Below, one piece after another: positions 260-7,868 of a stretch of DNA of 35,687 nt. The notes beneath the pieces were generated by a model. The model saw only the letters and a program-made list of their open reading frames with translations. It was not told the origin of the DNA and made no database searches. This stretch comes from Flammeovirgaceae bacterium (GTDB lineage Bacteria > Bacteroidota > Bacteroidia > Cytophagales > Flammeovirgaceae): assembly GCA_019634305.1 (NCBI GenBank), contig JAHQVQ010000425.1, positions 1-35,687 of the forward strand, given 5' to 3'. The translations under genes and the position numbers were made by a program. Position 1 is the first letter of the stretch; each line of letters begins with the position of its first letter.

Positions 260-3200
260 ATGTCAAGAAAGATAGTAAAATACTTTGCCACAAAATTTCA
301 GGAAAACCCGAATAACTCCTTTCCTATTTTTAAAAGCCTGATTTCTGCATTATCCTCCTACTATTCAGTTGTTTTTGTTGAAGATTCCCAAGACGATTCT
401 ACTGTAAAAATATTTCATCAAACAGGTTTGATAATAGGAAGTTTTCACATCGCTTCTACAACCCTTTCAGAAAGTAGCATTGATACCGTTGCGGAGAATT
501 ATTCCACTTTTTTCACAGATGGTTTTTTACTTAATCAAAATGGAGAAATCATAATTTCTGGTTTATATAACGAAGAAGCCTTATTTTTCAAAGCACTTAA
601 ACAGTTTTTCAAATTTGAGTCTTCCCAGCTTATTCGAGTAAAGGTCCAAAAAGCTTATTTAGTAAAAAATATTGGAAAATTTAAACCTGAATTAATTAAT
701 AAAATAGAAGAACGGGTCCGTAATGAAAGGGATTTTCGAAACAAAAGAAATGAGCTTGTAAATAAGTTACGAAAGCTTCTTCATCCTAAAATAGAACCAA
801 AATTTATCCATGAAATTATTACCCAATTTTTAATACTTTCAGGTTTTATTGATCAACTTAATTTCTCAAAGAAAAGACTTGAACAAGATCATATTTTCAG
901 GGCACTTCAGGCTTTAACTGAACCTGTAAAAAAGACCTTCCTAGATAATTCCTCTTTGTGGGAAAGCATCCAGAATTATTTTAATGACATTGCAAAAATC
1001 ATAAATGGATTAGAGGATAAACCTTACCAATCAAAATTCTTATTGAATTTTGCTAATGAATTCTATAACCTTTTTTATCAGGAGAAAACGCAAAAAAGAT
1101 CAGCAGAAATTCCTAAAGAAATATCTGGTTTTTGTAAAAAATTACTGAAGGAATTTAGATTAAATGATAAGGATAAAAATCTTCAAACTTTAAATCTTTC
1201 CCCAAGGGAAATTAATACCAACATGCTTTTTGAAAGTGGAGATAATTTCTCCCAATTCGAAAAAAAACTGATTCCCTATCTTTTATATCTTCTGTTTGAA
1301 AAAAATAAAATCGATTTCTTAAATCCACTATCCATTTCTAGGACAGCTACTACTGGTTTGCAAACAGATTTATTTGGAGTAAGTAGAAATGAATTAGGAT
1401 CAACTCAAATTGGTAATCAGGACGTAGATATTATCACTTTTTCTGCTATTTCCTCTTCCTCACCTGAAAATGAATTTCTAAGTTTTGAATATTCCCAAAG
1501 AGATAAAAAAGGAGTAGATGACAAAATTACAGAGACATATTTTTCCAGCAGCCCGGCTCCTTCAAATGCACTCTTTGAACCTGGATTAAAATACCTCAGA
1601 TGGGCCACAGATTATATTAAAGACGATGGGATAATATTGGCTATTTTGCCCTCCAAATATTTTATTGAAAAAAAATACGATGGATTAAGGATTTCCCTAG
1701 AAAATGAATTTTCAAAGATCAATATGATTTCTTTAGGAAAAGTAAATTTTCAGGAAAACCCGAACTTGGAACCTATTTGGAAGAATTCAACAATTTGCCT
1801 GTTAAAGAAAAGCAAGAAACATAAAGGCAATTCGGAAATTAAATTTCATCAATTGCCAGGTTGCAACTCCAATTACGAAAAATCCACCTTAATTCAGTCT
1901 CTGACCTATGAAAGTATTGATTTTAAATTAATTAAACCGGAAAAAGGTAATTGGTTTTCACAAGAGTACTTTGATTTTATACCATTGGTTGAAGAGGCTT
2001 CAGCTCCAGGGAAAAGTATTTTTAAGACATTTTCAAAAGGCATTTTTCCCCAGAATAGTCAATACATGGTGAAGTTTCATCAGGAAAATTTACAGGAAAA
2101 ATTTAAACTTTTAAAGCCTAGTTCTGAAGCCCCAAAAAAGCATTTTGCTACTCGAACTGGTTATTATAAACCTTTTGTAAAAAGAAAAATGGTTTATTCA
2201 AAAGTTTTGGAAAAGGAATTACAGCAATTTCCCGCCTTTTTCCCTTTTCAAAAGAATGTTTCTAATCAGTTAATCTGTACCTCAGGGCCAGGTTGTGAAA
2301 AACCTTTTCAGGTTTTAGCAACCGATTCTATCACAACTTATGATTTCCTTGAAAAAACGCTCTGTTTTCCACTTTTTTTTATTAATCAAAAAGGAAAGTC
2401 AGAGGAGAATATTACCGATTGGTGCCTTAGGCAGTTTAAAGAATTTTATATTCCTATTATTAAAAATCGGATAAAAGAAGCCAAGAATAAATCTGATTTT
2501 TTACAAGAAATGCTTCAGAAAATATCTCCTCTTTCCAAAAACCTTCCAGTACTTCATAAATTCACTTTAAAAATTGCTTCACTTTCAAAAAGTAAAGAAC
2601 AAAAGTTGATAGCGCCAGCATTAGCAAATGAAATTGTATTTGTAATACAGAATTTTGAAAAGAAACTTCAATTATTGGGGAAAGATGCAAAGGAGCGAAA
2701 AAAAATGATTGAAACACTGAAAAAAAATTTATCAGTAACAAAATCTGAACTTTTAAAAATTGGAAAGTCAGTAGAAGAATTAGAGCAAAAAAAAGCGATG
2801 CTTTCCAAAGAAAATATATTTTATTACACTTATGCTATTTTGTTAGACCCTGATTATCAAAAGCAATTTCAGGAGAATCTAAAAAATAATGTACCTAGAA
2901 TTCCCCTAAAACCTGACTTTTGGAAGTATTGCGAAAATGGAAAGTTATTAGTGGAACTCCATTTGGGATTACAAGAAATTCCTGGCTATCCGATAAGTAA
3001 AAATGAACAAATTTTAGAAAATGCAGCAAACAATAAACCAGAGCTAAAAGTGAATAAAGCCCTAGGTAGTATTTCTGTTGATGGCAGTCTGGAATTGGGG
3101 AATATTCCTCCCAAGGTTTGGCAATTTAAAATGGGAAATCATTCAATTTTAGAAATCCTTGTAAAAAATTATAAAAAAAAGGCAATACGTAAAAACACCA

Positions 3201-3325
3201 ATTGGAAGGAATTATATCAATATGATTTCAATGTATTAAAAGAAGATTTCATCAACGATATTTCACGGTTATCTGCTCTCAGTATAGAGACTCAGAAAAT
3301 TTTAAAAAACATGGAAATATCCTAA
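260..3325 (+). CDS. type ISP restriction enzyme-like methyltransferase/specificity protein, probably catalytically inactive
   Basis: The 1021-residue product resembles the methyltransferase plus target-recognition half of single-chain type ISP enzymes (LlaGI/LlaBIII group). Family-like blocks are GLKYLRWATDYI (442-453) followed by GIILAILPSKYF, SLGKVNFQENPNL (491-503), SGPGCEKPFQVLATD (675-689), FLEKTLCFP (696-704), ENITDWCLRQF (716-726), RIPLKPDFWKY (880-890), and a C-terminal GNHSILEILVKNY block (959-971). The helicase/nuclease half is absent. Where the family has the SAM-binding DPxTGTGTF motif and the catalytic NPPY motif, this protein shows unrelated residues (about 305-325 and 391-406; DIITFSAISSSSP replaces the NPPY segment). 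A lysine-rich, coiled-coil-like insertion of about 120 residues lies at 730-850. The frame is open throughout, so the gene looks maintained rather than decaying. No restriction partner is adjacent. An inverted repeat AGATGC/GCATCT (205-210, 225-230) lies in the leader. The homology is inferred from motifs; the inactive state and function are inference. Confidence 0.7.
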   Translation: MSRKIVKYFATKFQENPNNSFPIFKSLISALSSYYSVVFVEDSQDDSTVKIFHQTGLIIGSFHIASTTLSESSIDTVAENYSTFFTDGFLLNQNGEIIISGLYNEEALFFKALKQFFKFESSQLIRVKVQKAYLVKNIGKFKPELINKIEERVRNERDFRNKRNELVNKLRKLLHPKIEPKFIHEIITQFLILSGFIDQLNFSKKRLEQDHIFRALQALTEPVKKTFLDNSSLWESIQNYFNDIAKIINGLEDKPYQSKFLLNFANEFYNLFYQEKTQKRSAEIPKEISGFCKKLLKEFRLNDKDKNLQTLNLSPREINTNMLFESGDNFSQFEKKLIPYLLYLLFEKNKIDFLNPLSISRTATTGLQTDLFGVSRNELGSTQIGNQDVDIITFSAISSSSPENEFLSFEYSQRDKKGVDDKITETYFSSSPAPSNALFEPGLKYLRWATDYIKDDGIILAILPSKYFIEKKYDGLRISLENEFSKINMISLGKVNFQENPNLEPIWKNSTICLLKKSKKHKGNSEIKFHQLPGCNSNYEKSTLIQSLTYESIDFKLIKPEKGNWFSQEYFDFIPLVEEASAPGKSIFKTFSKGIFPQNSQYMVKFHQENLQEKFKLLKPSSEAPKKHFATRTGYYKPFVKRKMVYSKVLEKELQQFPAFFPFQKNVSNQLICTSGPGCEKPFQVLATDSITTYDFLEKTLCFPLFFINQKGKSEENITDWCLRQFKEFYIPIIKNRIKEAKNKSDFLQEMLQKISPLSKNLPVLHKFTLKIASLSKSKEQKLIAPALANEIVFVIQNFEKKLQLLGKDAKERKKMIETLKKNLSVTKSELLKIGKSVEELEQKKAMLSKENIFYYTYAILLDPDYQKQFQENLKNNVPRIPLKPDFWKYCENGKLLVELHLGLQEIPGYPISKNEQILENAANNKPELKVNKALGSISVDGSLELGNIPPKVWQFKMGNHSILEILVKNYKKKAIRKNTNWKELYQYDFNVLKEDFINDISRLSALSIETQKILKNMEIS

Positions 3326-3487: not shown

Positions 3488-4501
3488 TTGAAAACACAAG
3501 TTTTATCTGGTTACCAACCTATAAAAGGATTGAAATTTTTAGCCTTCATCTCCCTTGGGTTTGTATTACTTTATTTGGCTTTTAAAGACCGGGATCTTTC
3601 TGAGATTTTCAATCAGTTGAAATCCGCCAATTATATTTGGGCAATTCCTGTATTTTTCATATCCCTTTTTAGCCAAATTATAAGAACAATACGGTGGCAA
3701 ATGCTCATGAAGCCTCTTGGCTATAGGCCTGGAATAAAAAACAGTTTGTATGCTTTAATGTGCGGATATTTAGTAAACTATGCTGTTCCAAGACTTGGCG
3801 AAGTAACCAGATGCGCATTACTCAATAAGAGCAATAATGTTCCTTTCAAACCCTTATTTGGAACTGTGGTAACAGAAAGAGCCATAGATATCTTATGCCT
3901 GTTAATATTGATTTTATTGGTCACCATTTTTGAGTTTAGTACTATTTCAGGTTATTGCTATCAAATTATCTTTCTTCCTCTTTATTCCCATTTTCTATCC
4001 TCTTTACCTGAAATTACCACACTTTTAGCGATTGGTTTTATTACCATTGTTTTGCTTATTTCCATCTTTTTTATTTTTCAAAAAAAGATAACAACAAATT
4101 CTTTTTACCATAGAATGATTAACTTTTTTCAGCAAATTTTGGTGGGTATAGCCTCAGTCTCTAAAGTAGAGAAAAAGTGGTTATTTACATTAATTACAAT
4201 TACTATTTGGGCCACTTATTTTTTAACCACATATCTCTGGTTTTTTGCTTTTGAGGAAACAAAAAACCTCACTTTAGGAGCCGGATTGTTTTTTATGGTA
4301 ATGGGAAGTATAGGAAAATCCTTACCAATACAAGGTGGGGGAATGGGAGCCTATCATTACCTGATCACACAAGCAGTTTTATTATACGGTGTAGGTGAGG
4401 TATATGGAAATGCCTTATCAATAATAGTCCATGGATTTCAGACTGCTTTTTATCTGGTACTTGGGGGAATAAGTTTCTTCATTATTTCCTTAAAAAAATA
4501 A
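3488..4501 (+). CDS. UPF0104/lysylphosphatidylglycerol synthase-like integral membrane protein
   Basis: The 337-residue multi-pass inner-membrane protein belongs to the family related to the flippase-like membrane half of MprF (PF03706). Diagnostic blocks are RWQMLMKPLG (69-78), NYAVPRLGEVTRC (97-109), GTVVTERAID (125-134) and the glycine-rich GGGMGAYHYL near the C-terminus. About eight hydrophobic segments are visible. There is no C-terminal soluble aminoacyltransferase domain, so lysyl-PG synthesis itself is not expected; a lipid transport or lipid-modifying role is inferred from the family. The start is TTG: an in-frame TAA lies 12 bases upstream at 3476-3478 and no ATG lies between, while the first ATGs downstream would remove the first membrane segment. 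It stands alone, with a reverse-strand gene downstream. Confidence 0.8.
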   Translation: MKTQVLSGYQPIKGLKFLAFISLGFVLLYLAFKDRDLSEIFNQLKSANYIWAIPVFFISLFSQIIRTIRWQMLMKPLGYRPGIKNSLYALMCGYLVNYAVPRLGEVTRCALLNKSNNVPFKPLFGTVVTERAIDILCLLILILLVTIFEFSTISGYCYQIIFLPLYSHFLSSLPEITTLLAIGFITIVLLISIFFIFQKKITTNSFYHRMINFFQQILVGIASVSKVEKKWLFTLITITIWATYFLTTYLWFFAFEETKNLTLGAGLFFMVMGSIGKSLPIQGGGMGAYHYLITQAVLLYGVGEVYGNALSIIVHGFQTAFYLVLGGISFFIISLKK

Positions 4502-6590: not shown

Positions 6591-7868
6591 ATGGAATCAG
6601 TAAAGAACACAATAGTAGAGGACGCTAAAACTTTTGCACTCCATATTTTACAGGACGAAACGCCTAAGAACCTTGAATATCATAATGCGGAGCACACTGA
6701 GGAAGTAGTAATTGCTGCCATTGAAATAGGAACCGCAAATGACTTGAATGAGGAAGATATGGAGATTTTGCAACTGGCTGCCTGGTTTCACGATACAGGC
6801 CACAGCAAAAGAGTGAATGGACATGAGGAGGAAAGCCAGACTATAGCAGAAAAATTTCTGCAATCAACCAGTTATCCGGAAGAAAAATTATCCAAAGTAA
6901 AAAGTGCTATTAAAGCCACAAAAATGCCACAATCTCCACAAAACCCTGTGGAAGAAGTACTTTGTGATGCTGATTTAGCTCATCTGGGGAAAAAAGGGTT
7001 TATGGGAAAAATGGCCTGTCTCAGAAAAGAATGGCATTCTCTAGGCAGTATAGATTTTAACGATGAAGAGTGGTATAATTACAATCTTAAGTTTATTGAC
7101 CAACACAATTATTTTACTGAATACGGTAAAACCAATTTACAACCTCGGAAAAAAAAGAACCTAAAAAAAATAAAAAAGAAATTAAAGGAGCTGAGTGCCA
7201 AAAAAGATGATTTCCTTGTAGAAGAGTTGGGCGTAGATGCTAATGAACTAAAGAGCCTTAAGAAAAAACTGCTAAAGGTTCAGGGCAGACCTGAAAGAGG
7301 AATCGAAACAATGTTTAGAACAACCTCTAGAAATCATGTAGATTTTAGTTCCATGGCTGATAGTAAAGCTAATATCATGATTTCAGTAAATTCCATTATC
7401 ATTACGATCATTATTGGTGTTTTAATGAGAAAACTGGACAGTAATCCACACCTTATTATTCCTACAGTCATCCTTTTAGTAGTTTGTTTAACCTCAATAG
7501 TTTTTGCCATCTTAGCCACCAGACCTAACGTAACCTCAGGAAAATTCACAGAAGCAGATATTAAAGATAAAAAAGCCAATTTATTATTTTTCGGCAATTT
7601 CCATCAAATGAAAATCTCTGATTTTGAATGGGGAATGCGGGAACTGATAAATGATAGCGATTATTTATATGGAAGTATGATAAGGGATATTTATTTTCTT
7701 GGAGCCGTATTAGGAAGGAAATATCATTTTTTAAGAATTGCCTACACCATTTTTATGTTTGGGCTGATTATCGCATCTATCGCTTTTGTAGTGGCTACTT
7801 TTATGTACAATCAGGGCCTTACTACCCCTCCTATCGATCCCTCTGAAATTATTGATGATACTTTTTAA
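6591..7868 (+). CDS. HD-domain hydrolase fused to PycTM (Pycsar effector-type) membrane domain
   Basis: The 425-residue protein has two parts. Residues 1-170 form an HD phosphohydrolase: H31/H35 in EYHNAEH, the doublet H67-D68 in AAWFHDTGH, H78, and the distal D126/D128 in CDADLAH complete the expected metal set. A lysine-rich, probably helical linker spans 183-235. Residues 241-404 match the PycTM/DUF5706 domain: RNHVDFSSMADSKANIMISVN leads into membrane segments at about 262-279 and 287-308, then LATRPNVTSGKFT and NLLFFGNFHQM, and a third segment at about 382-404. PycTM domains are membrane effectors in Pycsar phage defence, triggered by cCMP or cUMP from a PycC cyclase. No cyclase or defence gene is in this window. 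I recall such HD fusions in many Bacteroidota genomes, which suggests a resident role. The HD part could degrade the activating nucleotide or sense it; both are inference. Confidence 0.85.
   Translation: MESVKNTIVEDAKTFALHILQDETPKNLEYHNAEHTEEVVIAAIEIGTANDLNEEDMEILQLAAWFHDTGHSKRVNGHEEESQTIAEKFLQSTSYPEEKLSKVKSAIKATKMPQSPQNPVEEVLCDADLAHLGKKGFMGKMACLRKEWHSLGSIDFNDEEWYNYNLKFIDQHNYFTEYGKTNLQPRKKKNLKKIKKKLKELSAKKDDFLVEELGVDANELKSLKKKLLKVQGRPERGIETMFRTTSRNHVDFSSMADSKANIMISVNSIIITIIIGVLMRKLDSNPHLIIPTVILLVVCLTSIVFAILATRPNVTSGKFTEADIKDKKANLLFFGNFHQMKISDFEWGMRELINDSDYLYGSMIRDIYFLGAVLGRKYHFLRIAYTIFMFGLIIASIAFVVATFMYNQGLTTPPIDPSEIIDDTF

Follow-up and report, generated by a model that had tools for sequence, protein, structure and literature searches.

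What does a cell keep when it keeps a protein built like a restriction-methylation enzyme from which the catalytic motifs have gone? This question is raised by the gene at positions 260–3325 (+ strand) of the window, the whole stretch of 35,687 nucleotides analysed here. The window is an entire contig (G000:C409:1-35687) of a draft genome that is 84.7% complete, and the gene begins 260 bases from its edge. The initial annotation described a stand-alone type ISP-like methyltransferase/specificity protein that was kept for a non-methylating task.

Identity of the protein

The reading frame runs from the ATG at 260 to the stop codon at 3325 and is, as annotated before, uninterrupted over 1021 codons. 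The profile search proposed at that time gave a match to the Type_ISP_C domain (PF18135) with E 2.3e-45 and 155.6 bits, above the curated cut-off of 25.9, and the match falls in two stretches with an insert between them. PADLOC type IIG models match the protein as well (best 6.6e-51). By sequence, the best solved structure is PDB 7lo5, aligned over the full length with E 8.9e-64, and matches to LlaGI and LlaBIII are found at ~1e-18. 7LO5 is the structure of DrdV, in which a single type IIL chain holds the nuclease, the methyltransferase and the target-recognition domain (TRD) (PMC11842806, PMC10201449). The same type IIL/IIG layout is present here: a single chain of ~1000 aa with the nuclease place, coupler, methyltransferase region and TRD. 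Flexithrix dorotheae has a full-length orthologue with 59% identity.

Since the protein has the length of DrdV, the view that it is one half of a type ISP enzyme fails; domain order and the trees described below, which place it with type IIL, rule out that reading too. Judged from sequence, the product of 260–3325 is a full-length relative of the type IIL enzyme DrdV. The type ISP-like relationship noticed initially therefore holds at the level of PF18135, and the type ISP label has to give way to that of a DrdV-like type IIL derivative. Similarly, the reported lack of a nuclease half is true for the Mrr nuclease and SF2 helicase of type ISP, neither of which is in the 1021-aa chain (no helicase match was obtained), and no helicase or other restriction-modification half was seen among the ORFs scanned over the 32 kb downstream of the gene. 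It is not true for the type IIL nuclease place, which is occupied by residues 1 to ~134 (260–661, +), although without the catalytic PDG and WESK residues. In orthologues of genus g3 (probably Flammeovirga) the alignment shows this N-terminal region to be missing entirely. Residues 136–252 (665–1015, +) form an ISP_coupler-like region that is helical in the model; its match to PF22240 (E 3.8e-4) is weak and lies under the curated cut-off. PglX/BrxX membership is not indicated, as no BREX genes are found among the scanned window ORFs, and the Foldseek match to BrxX has E 1.4e-4 and TM 0.13.

Compared with DrdV (1029 aa, PDB 7LO5/7LVV), the protein is alike in length and domain order, DrdV being its best match both by sequence and in Foldseek and belonging to its sister group. 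The difference is that DrdV is an active enzyme, cutting and methylating at CATGNAC (PMC10201449). In the window protein the nuclease, SAM, NPPY and loop III residues are missing, and there is an additional insert of ~115 aa. With the type ISP enzymes LlaBIII and LlaGI (PDB 4XQK, 5FFJ) it shares the coupler–methyltransferase–TRD order and the PF18135 specificity domain, but it has no Mrr nuclease, SF2 helicase or catalytic methyltransferase motifs and groups with type IIL. Structure models of the whole protein (pTM 0.37) and of a fragment (pTM 0.43) are both poor, their alignment being poor in true orthologues. In a Foldseek search with the low-confidence model DrdV chains come out on top (4.1e-31), which is partly circular because the alignment behind the model held related enzymes.

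Loss of the catalytic motifs

Alignment with DrdV-like active enzymes locates the places where catalytic residues should stand. RPDG...GYWESKD of the active nuclease is replaced by HQTG...SFHIAST in the window protein, GVxYTP (motif X region) by SAEIPKE, LDPxTGTGTF (motif I) by LQTLNLSP, and IIGNPPY (motif IV) by ITFSAISSSS. Thus the PD-(D/E)XK nuclease residues (PDG...ExK) are lacking. The former SAM motif I position (1181–1204, +) reads LQTLNLSP in place of VQILDPCTGTGTF of an active relative, and the former motif IV position (1424–1459, +) reads VDIITFSAISSS in place of ISVIIGNPPYNA. Neither DPxxGxG nor NPPY is found at the aligned positions, so that the pair of motifs marking gamma-class N6-adenine methyltransferases is absent, in agreement with what had been reported from the sequence before.

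The loss is not a property of the window protein only. Comparison of orthologues, suggested together with the initial annotation, shows that the catalytic motifs are absent in all 15 clade members compared, with replacements that differ among genera. By contrast, NPPY is kept in 17/17 active relatives and WESK in the five type IIL rows that cover the site. Even G108, which keeps the full architecture, has YWKSC, NPFMETGQW and SSYTS in place of the three motifs. We conclude from the alignments, with high confidence, that catalysis has been lost in the window protein, a state shared by the compared members of its clade. At the SAM-loop (motif I) position five orthologues of genus g3 (L034, L038, L039, L042 and L083) carry an invariant YLYPSFTLPPFLD, to which G004 has a near-match. 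This sequence pattern suggests that YLYPSFTLPPFLD is a new conserved site in genus g3.

The loops that read DNA from the methyltransferase side have also changed. In LlaGI and LlaBIII loops I and III give base contacts, and loop III provides intercalating residues and a phenylalanine that contacts the flipped adenine (PMC4872093). Both loops are degraded in the window protein, and canonical site reading is therefore doubtful. What remains of the base-flipping/recognition loop III (1736–1789, +) is shortened and has neither the aligned phenylalanine nor the intercalating arginine; the aligned segment is 33–39 residues long in active relatives versus 16–30 in the dead proteins.

A helical insert in the target-recognition domain

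The first part of the target-recognition core, residues ~564–730 (1949–2449, +), can be followed in the 7lo5 match and in the alignment, its jaw segment being shortened. It is followed by a clade-specific insert of ~115 aa, residues ~731–848 (2450–2803, +), which is missing from active relatives and separates the recognition loops from the conserved core helices. These helices and the C-terminal guide domain make up the remainder of PF18135 (2804–3322, +; PF18135 and 7lo5 matches). The lysine-rich insertion previously placed at 730–850 is real, those numbers being protein coordinates. In the alignment this segment has 10–11 residues in three active type IIL enzymes versus 120–124 in the dead proteins, and the insert profile A2 matches at 2423–2803 with E 6.1e-37. 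The window protein combines the LPVLHKFT and ERKK signatures of the insert with loss of all catalytic motifs, the combination that characterizes the clade. Its insert region has a net charge of +14, as compared to +3 to +9 in orthologues.

The structure models predict, with low confidence, that the insert is helical. We could not identify it as a known domain: comparison with the PDB gave weak coiled-coil-like matches, and one orthologue gave a single weak spectrin-like Pfam match.

Distribution and phylogeny

An insert query finds exactly one copy of the gene in 16 of the 18 genomes of the window's family, probably Flammeovirgaceae (E 1e-34 to 1e-43); the two genomes in which it is absent are both ~3 Mb. 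Among 390 genomes of the order further clear cases are G371 of family f19 and G108 of family f22. Within f19 the insert gene occurs only in genus g126 (three genomes, G371, G399 and G458), and within f22 only in G108, one of eight genomes; each of these four carriers, too, has a single copy. In 395 genomes of the phylum there is no convincing insert besides the window's own, other matches being weak (E above 8e-5) and partial. A search with PF18135 in ten carrier genomes finds the dead gene and no second Type_ISP_C protein, and therefore these carriers have no active relative of that kind; this search found no active paralogue elsewhere in their genomes.

Two trees of dead proteins and active relatives were built. 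In the quick tree, from which the insert columns were left out and which came with long-branch warnings, all 15 dead rows lie on one side of a branch beside the DrdV-like enzymes, with SH-aLRT support of 90. The careful tree omits three long dead rows and two active rows, and gives 98/96 for the remaining 12 dead rows. In both, the dead clade groups with type IIL and not with type ISP; in the careful tree the DrdV-like enzymes are its sister group. Within the dead clade G108 branches off first. The position of g126 within the family's branch (90/86) is unsure, its branches being long, and may reflect transfer or an old origin with loss. Taken together, the trees and alignments indicate that the dead state is common to one clade and old.

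Genomic context and selection

Loci are stable within genera, and no neighbour conserved across all genera was found. In the window the gene is followed by an LPG_synthase_TM (flippase-like) gene (3488–4501, +), which in genera g1 and g8 lies next to the gene of the dead enzyme and is used here purely as a synteny marker. Genus g8 has the order dead enzyme – LPG_synthase_TM – amidohydrolase, as in the window and in Flexithrix, and its gene sits after ribosomal-protein/rpoA/carA genes. In genus g3 the gene adjoins polA. Genus g126 has one syntenic locus. Downstream genes of the window are syntenic with those of Flexithrix and 85–94% identical, as compared to 59% for the dead enzyme; between G399 and G371 the gene is 39% identical and its neighbours 65–85%.

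All 15 compared orthologues have long uninterrupted frames. dN/dS, estimated by a simple counting method that is saturated for distant pairs, is 0.058–0.065 in three close pairs, most neighbours having 0.01–0.06. The least saturated congeneric pairs give 0.058 and 0.062, and other g3 pairs, whose dS exceeds 2, give 0.021 and 0.105. Between window and Flexithrix dN/dS is 0.23 versus 0.02–0.06 for neighbours. These values indicate that the gene is functional, though evolving faster than most of its neighbours. The distribution of constraint along the protein is different in different branches. In close pairs of genus g3 the pseudo-methyltransferase core is the most constrained part (dN/dS 0.02–0.03). 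In the window/Flexithrix pair the motif I–IV part is the least constrained (0.47), and the recognition domain with the insert is the most constrained. A single conserved DNA target is therefore doubtful. The net charge of the orthologues varies from −10 to +30, that is, with no consistent positive charge.

In G458 the orthologue (L082:9193-12031, − strand) is split into frames of 349 and 570 aa near an A-rich stretch, which may be real or a sequencing error. A further gene of the window, at 6591–7868 (+), encodes an HD domain joined at its C-terminal side to PycTM, a membrane domain of the Pycsar effector type. Flexithrix has a 92% identical gene in the same place, and the scan of neighbouring ORFs recognised no cyclase.

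Possible function

Catalytic motifs are lost and a single copy is nevertheless kept under selection, which makes a non-catalytic binding job probable. We consider it likely that a DrdV-like type IIL restriction-methylation enzyme has here been domesticated into a protein that has no catalytic activity and acts by binding. The initial proposal of a non-methylating task is supported in so far as all 15 orthologues have degenerate motifs and the insert, form one clade, occupy loci that are stable within genera and are under purifying selection. The sequences show that a DrdV-like type IIL ancestor lost the nuclease, SAM-binding and NPPY motifs, with the base-flipping loop gone or reduced to a remnant, and gained the helical insert within its target-recognition domain. 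The gene is maintained as a single chromosomal copy under purifying selection, with no active relative in the tested carriers. The remaining recognition core and guide could still contact DNA, and the coiled-coil-like insert could join copies of the protein to each other or to a partner. That the TRD core, the guide and a coiled-coil-like insert are kept points to a DNA-bound scaffold, not an enzyme, and we put this role forward tentatively, as somewhat short of an even chance. It is conceivable, with still less assurance, that the protein has settled in the family, with stable vertical inheritance, into a role in chromosome architecture or regulation, after it was stripped of all catalytic functions and gained a coiled-coil-like domain, and that its dead core has come under new strong selection in one branch.

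A conserved DNA target is hard to reconcile with the degraded methyltransferase-side loops, the variable charge and the shifting constraint, and binding of a partner is the strongest rival explanation. The protein would then be a non-catalytic partner or regulatory subunit of an unrelated methyltransferase, a nuclease or a repair/replication protein, with the pseudo-methyltransferase core serving as a protein or ligand surface and DNA no longer needed. METTL14, the non-catalytic partner of METTL3, is a precedent: pseudo-methyltransferases of the METTL14 and DNMT3L types keep the methyltransferase fold without catalysis and are under selection, but they are eukaryotic and have established active partners. 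The strong constraint on the dead core in genus g3 with its invariant new motif, the coiled-coil-like look of the insert and the location beside polA in g3 and after ribosomal-protein/rpoA/carA genes in g8 would fit such a subunit. However, no neighbour is kept across all genera, the tested carriers have no active Type_ISP_C paralogue that could serve as partner, and window and Flexithrix show the opposite pattern of constraint. We regard this alternative as possible but doubtful.

A role as decoy or sensor for phage anti-restriction proteins, i.e. Ocr-like DNA mimics that bind the DNA-binding clamp of such enzymes, is improbable. Evolution faster than that of the flanking genes (59% versus 85–94% identity between window and Flexithrix) fits conflict with phages, and Ocr binds the related BrxX (PMC11842806; PDB 9ex7). 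Nevertheless dN/dS is well under 1 and loci are stable within genera, most of the clamp surface, to which loops I and III and the jaw belong, is degraded, the protein has no effector domain, and PF18135 reveals no type IIL/ISP enzyme to protect in the tested carriers.

It is very unlikely that the gene is a decaying restriction enzyme, a pseudogene awaiting loss. Missing motifs, fast divergence, the split gene of G458 and the two ~3 Mb family genomes lacking the gene could be read in this way, but unbroken long frames in 15/15 orthologues, dN/dS of ~0.06 in close pairs, the insert and loss state common across genera and the single copy in 16/18 family genomes speak against it; local decay is largely refuted by the shared state together with dN/dS. 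Least probable is that the protein is still an active methyltransferase whose motifs have diverged past recognition: part of the fold is retained and the model does not resolve the SAM region (residues ~300–416, pLDDT mostly 23–54), but GxG loop, NPPY and base-flipping loop are absent without exception, and what replaces them varies by genus.

Restriction-modification enzymes can become solitary, still active methyltransferases, as in the case of DnmA and CamA. A wholly dead enzyme that persists throughout a family as one copy on the chromosome would take domestication a step further, and we found no described dead type IIL family in the open-licence literature. DnmA (YeeA) of Bacillus subtilis, an MmeI-like solitary methyltransferase, is similarly derived from a restriction-modification enzyme, lacks the nuclease motif and has been put to another use, but it still methylates GACGAG, while the methyltransferase motifs of the window protein are gone. 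The catalytically inactive Y465A variant of DnmA localises like the wild type (PMC9973331), so a dead protein of such kind can still find DNA; it is important to note that this mutant kept its recognition loops. The dead clade offers a defined test case, as each genome has one gene, Flexithrix dorotheae is in culture, G108 branches early, and there is the signature insert plus motif loss by which more members can be found.

Two observations concern other relatives of type IIL enzymes. Type IIL-like genes of two genus g28 genomes (L044:7013-11183 and L045:7180-10855) are split into coupler+methyltransferase, ~200-aa and Type_ISP_C frames, possibly a split-subunit variant. On an IMG/VR viral contig (L086:2783-6004) there is a gene for a DrdV-like type IIL enzyme in which WESK, DPCTGTGTY and NPPY are all present.
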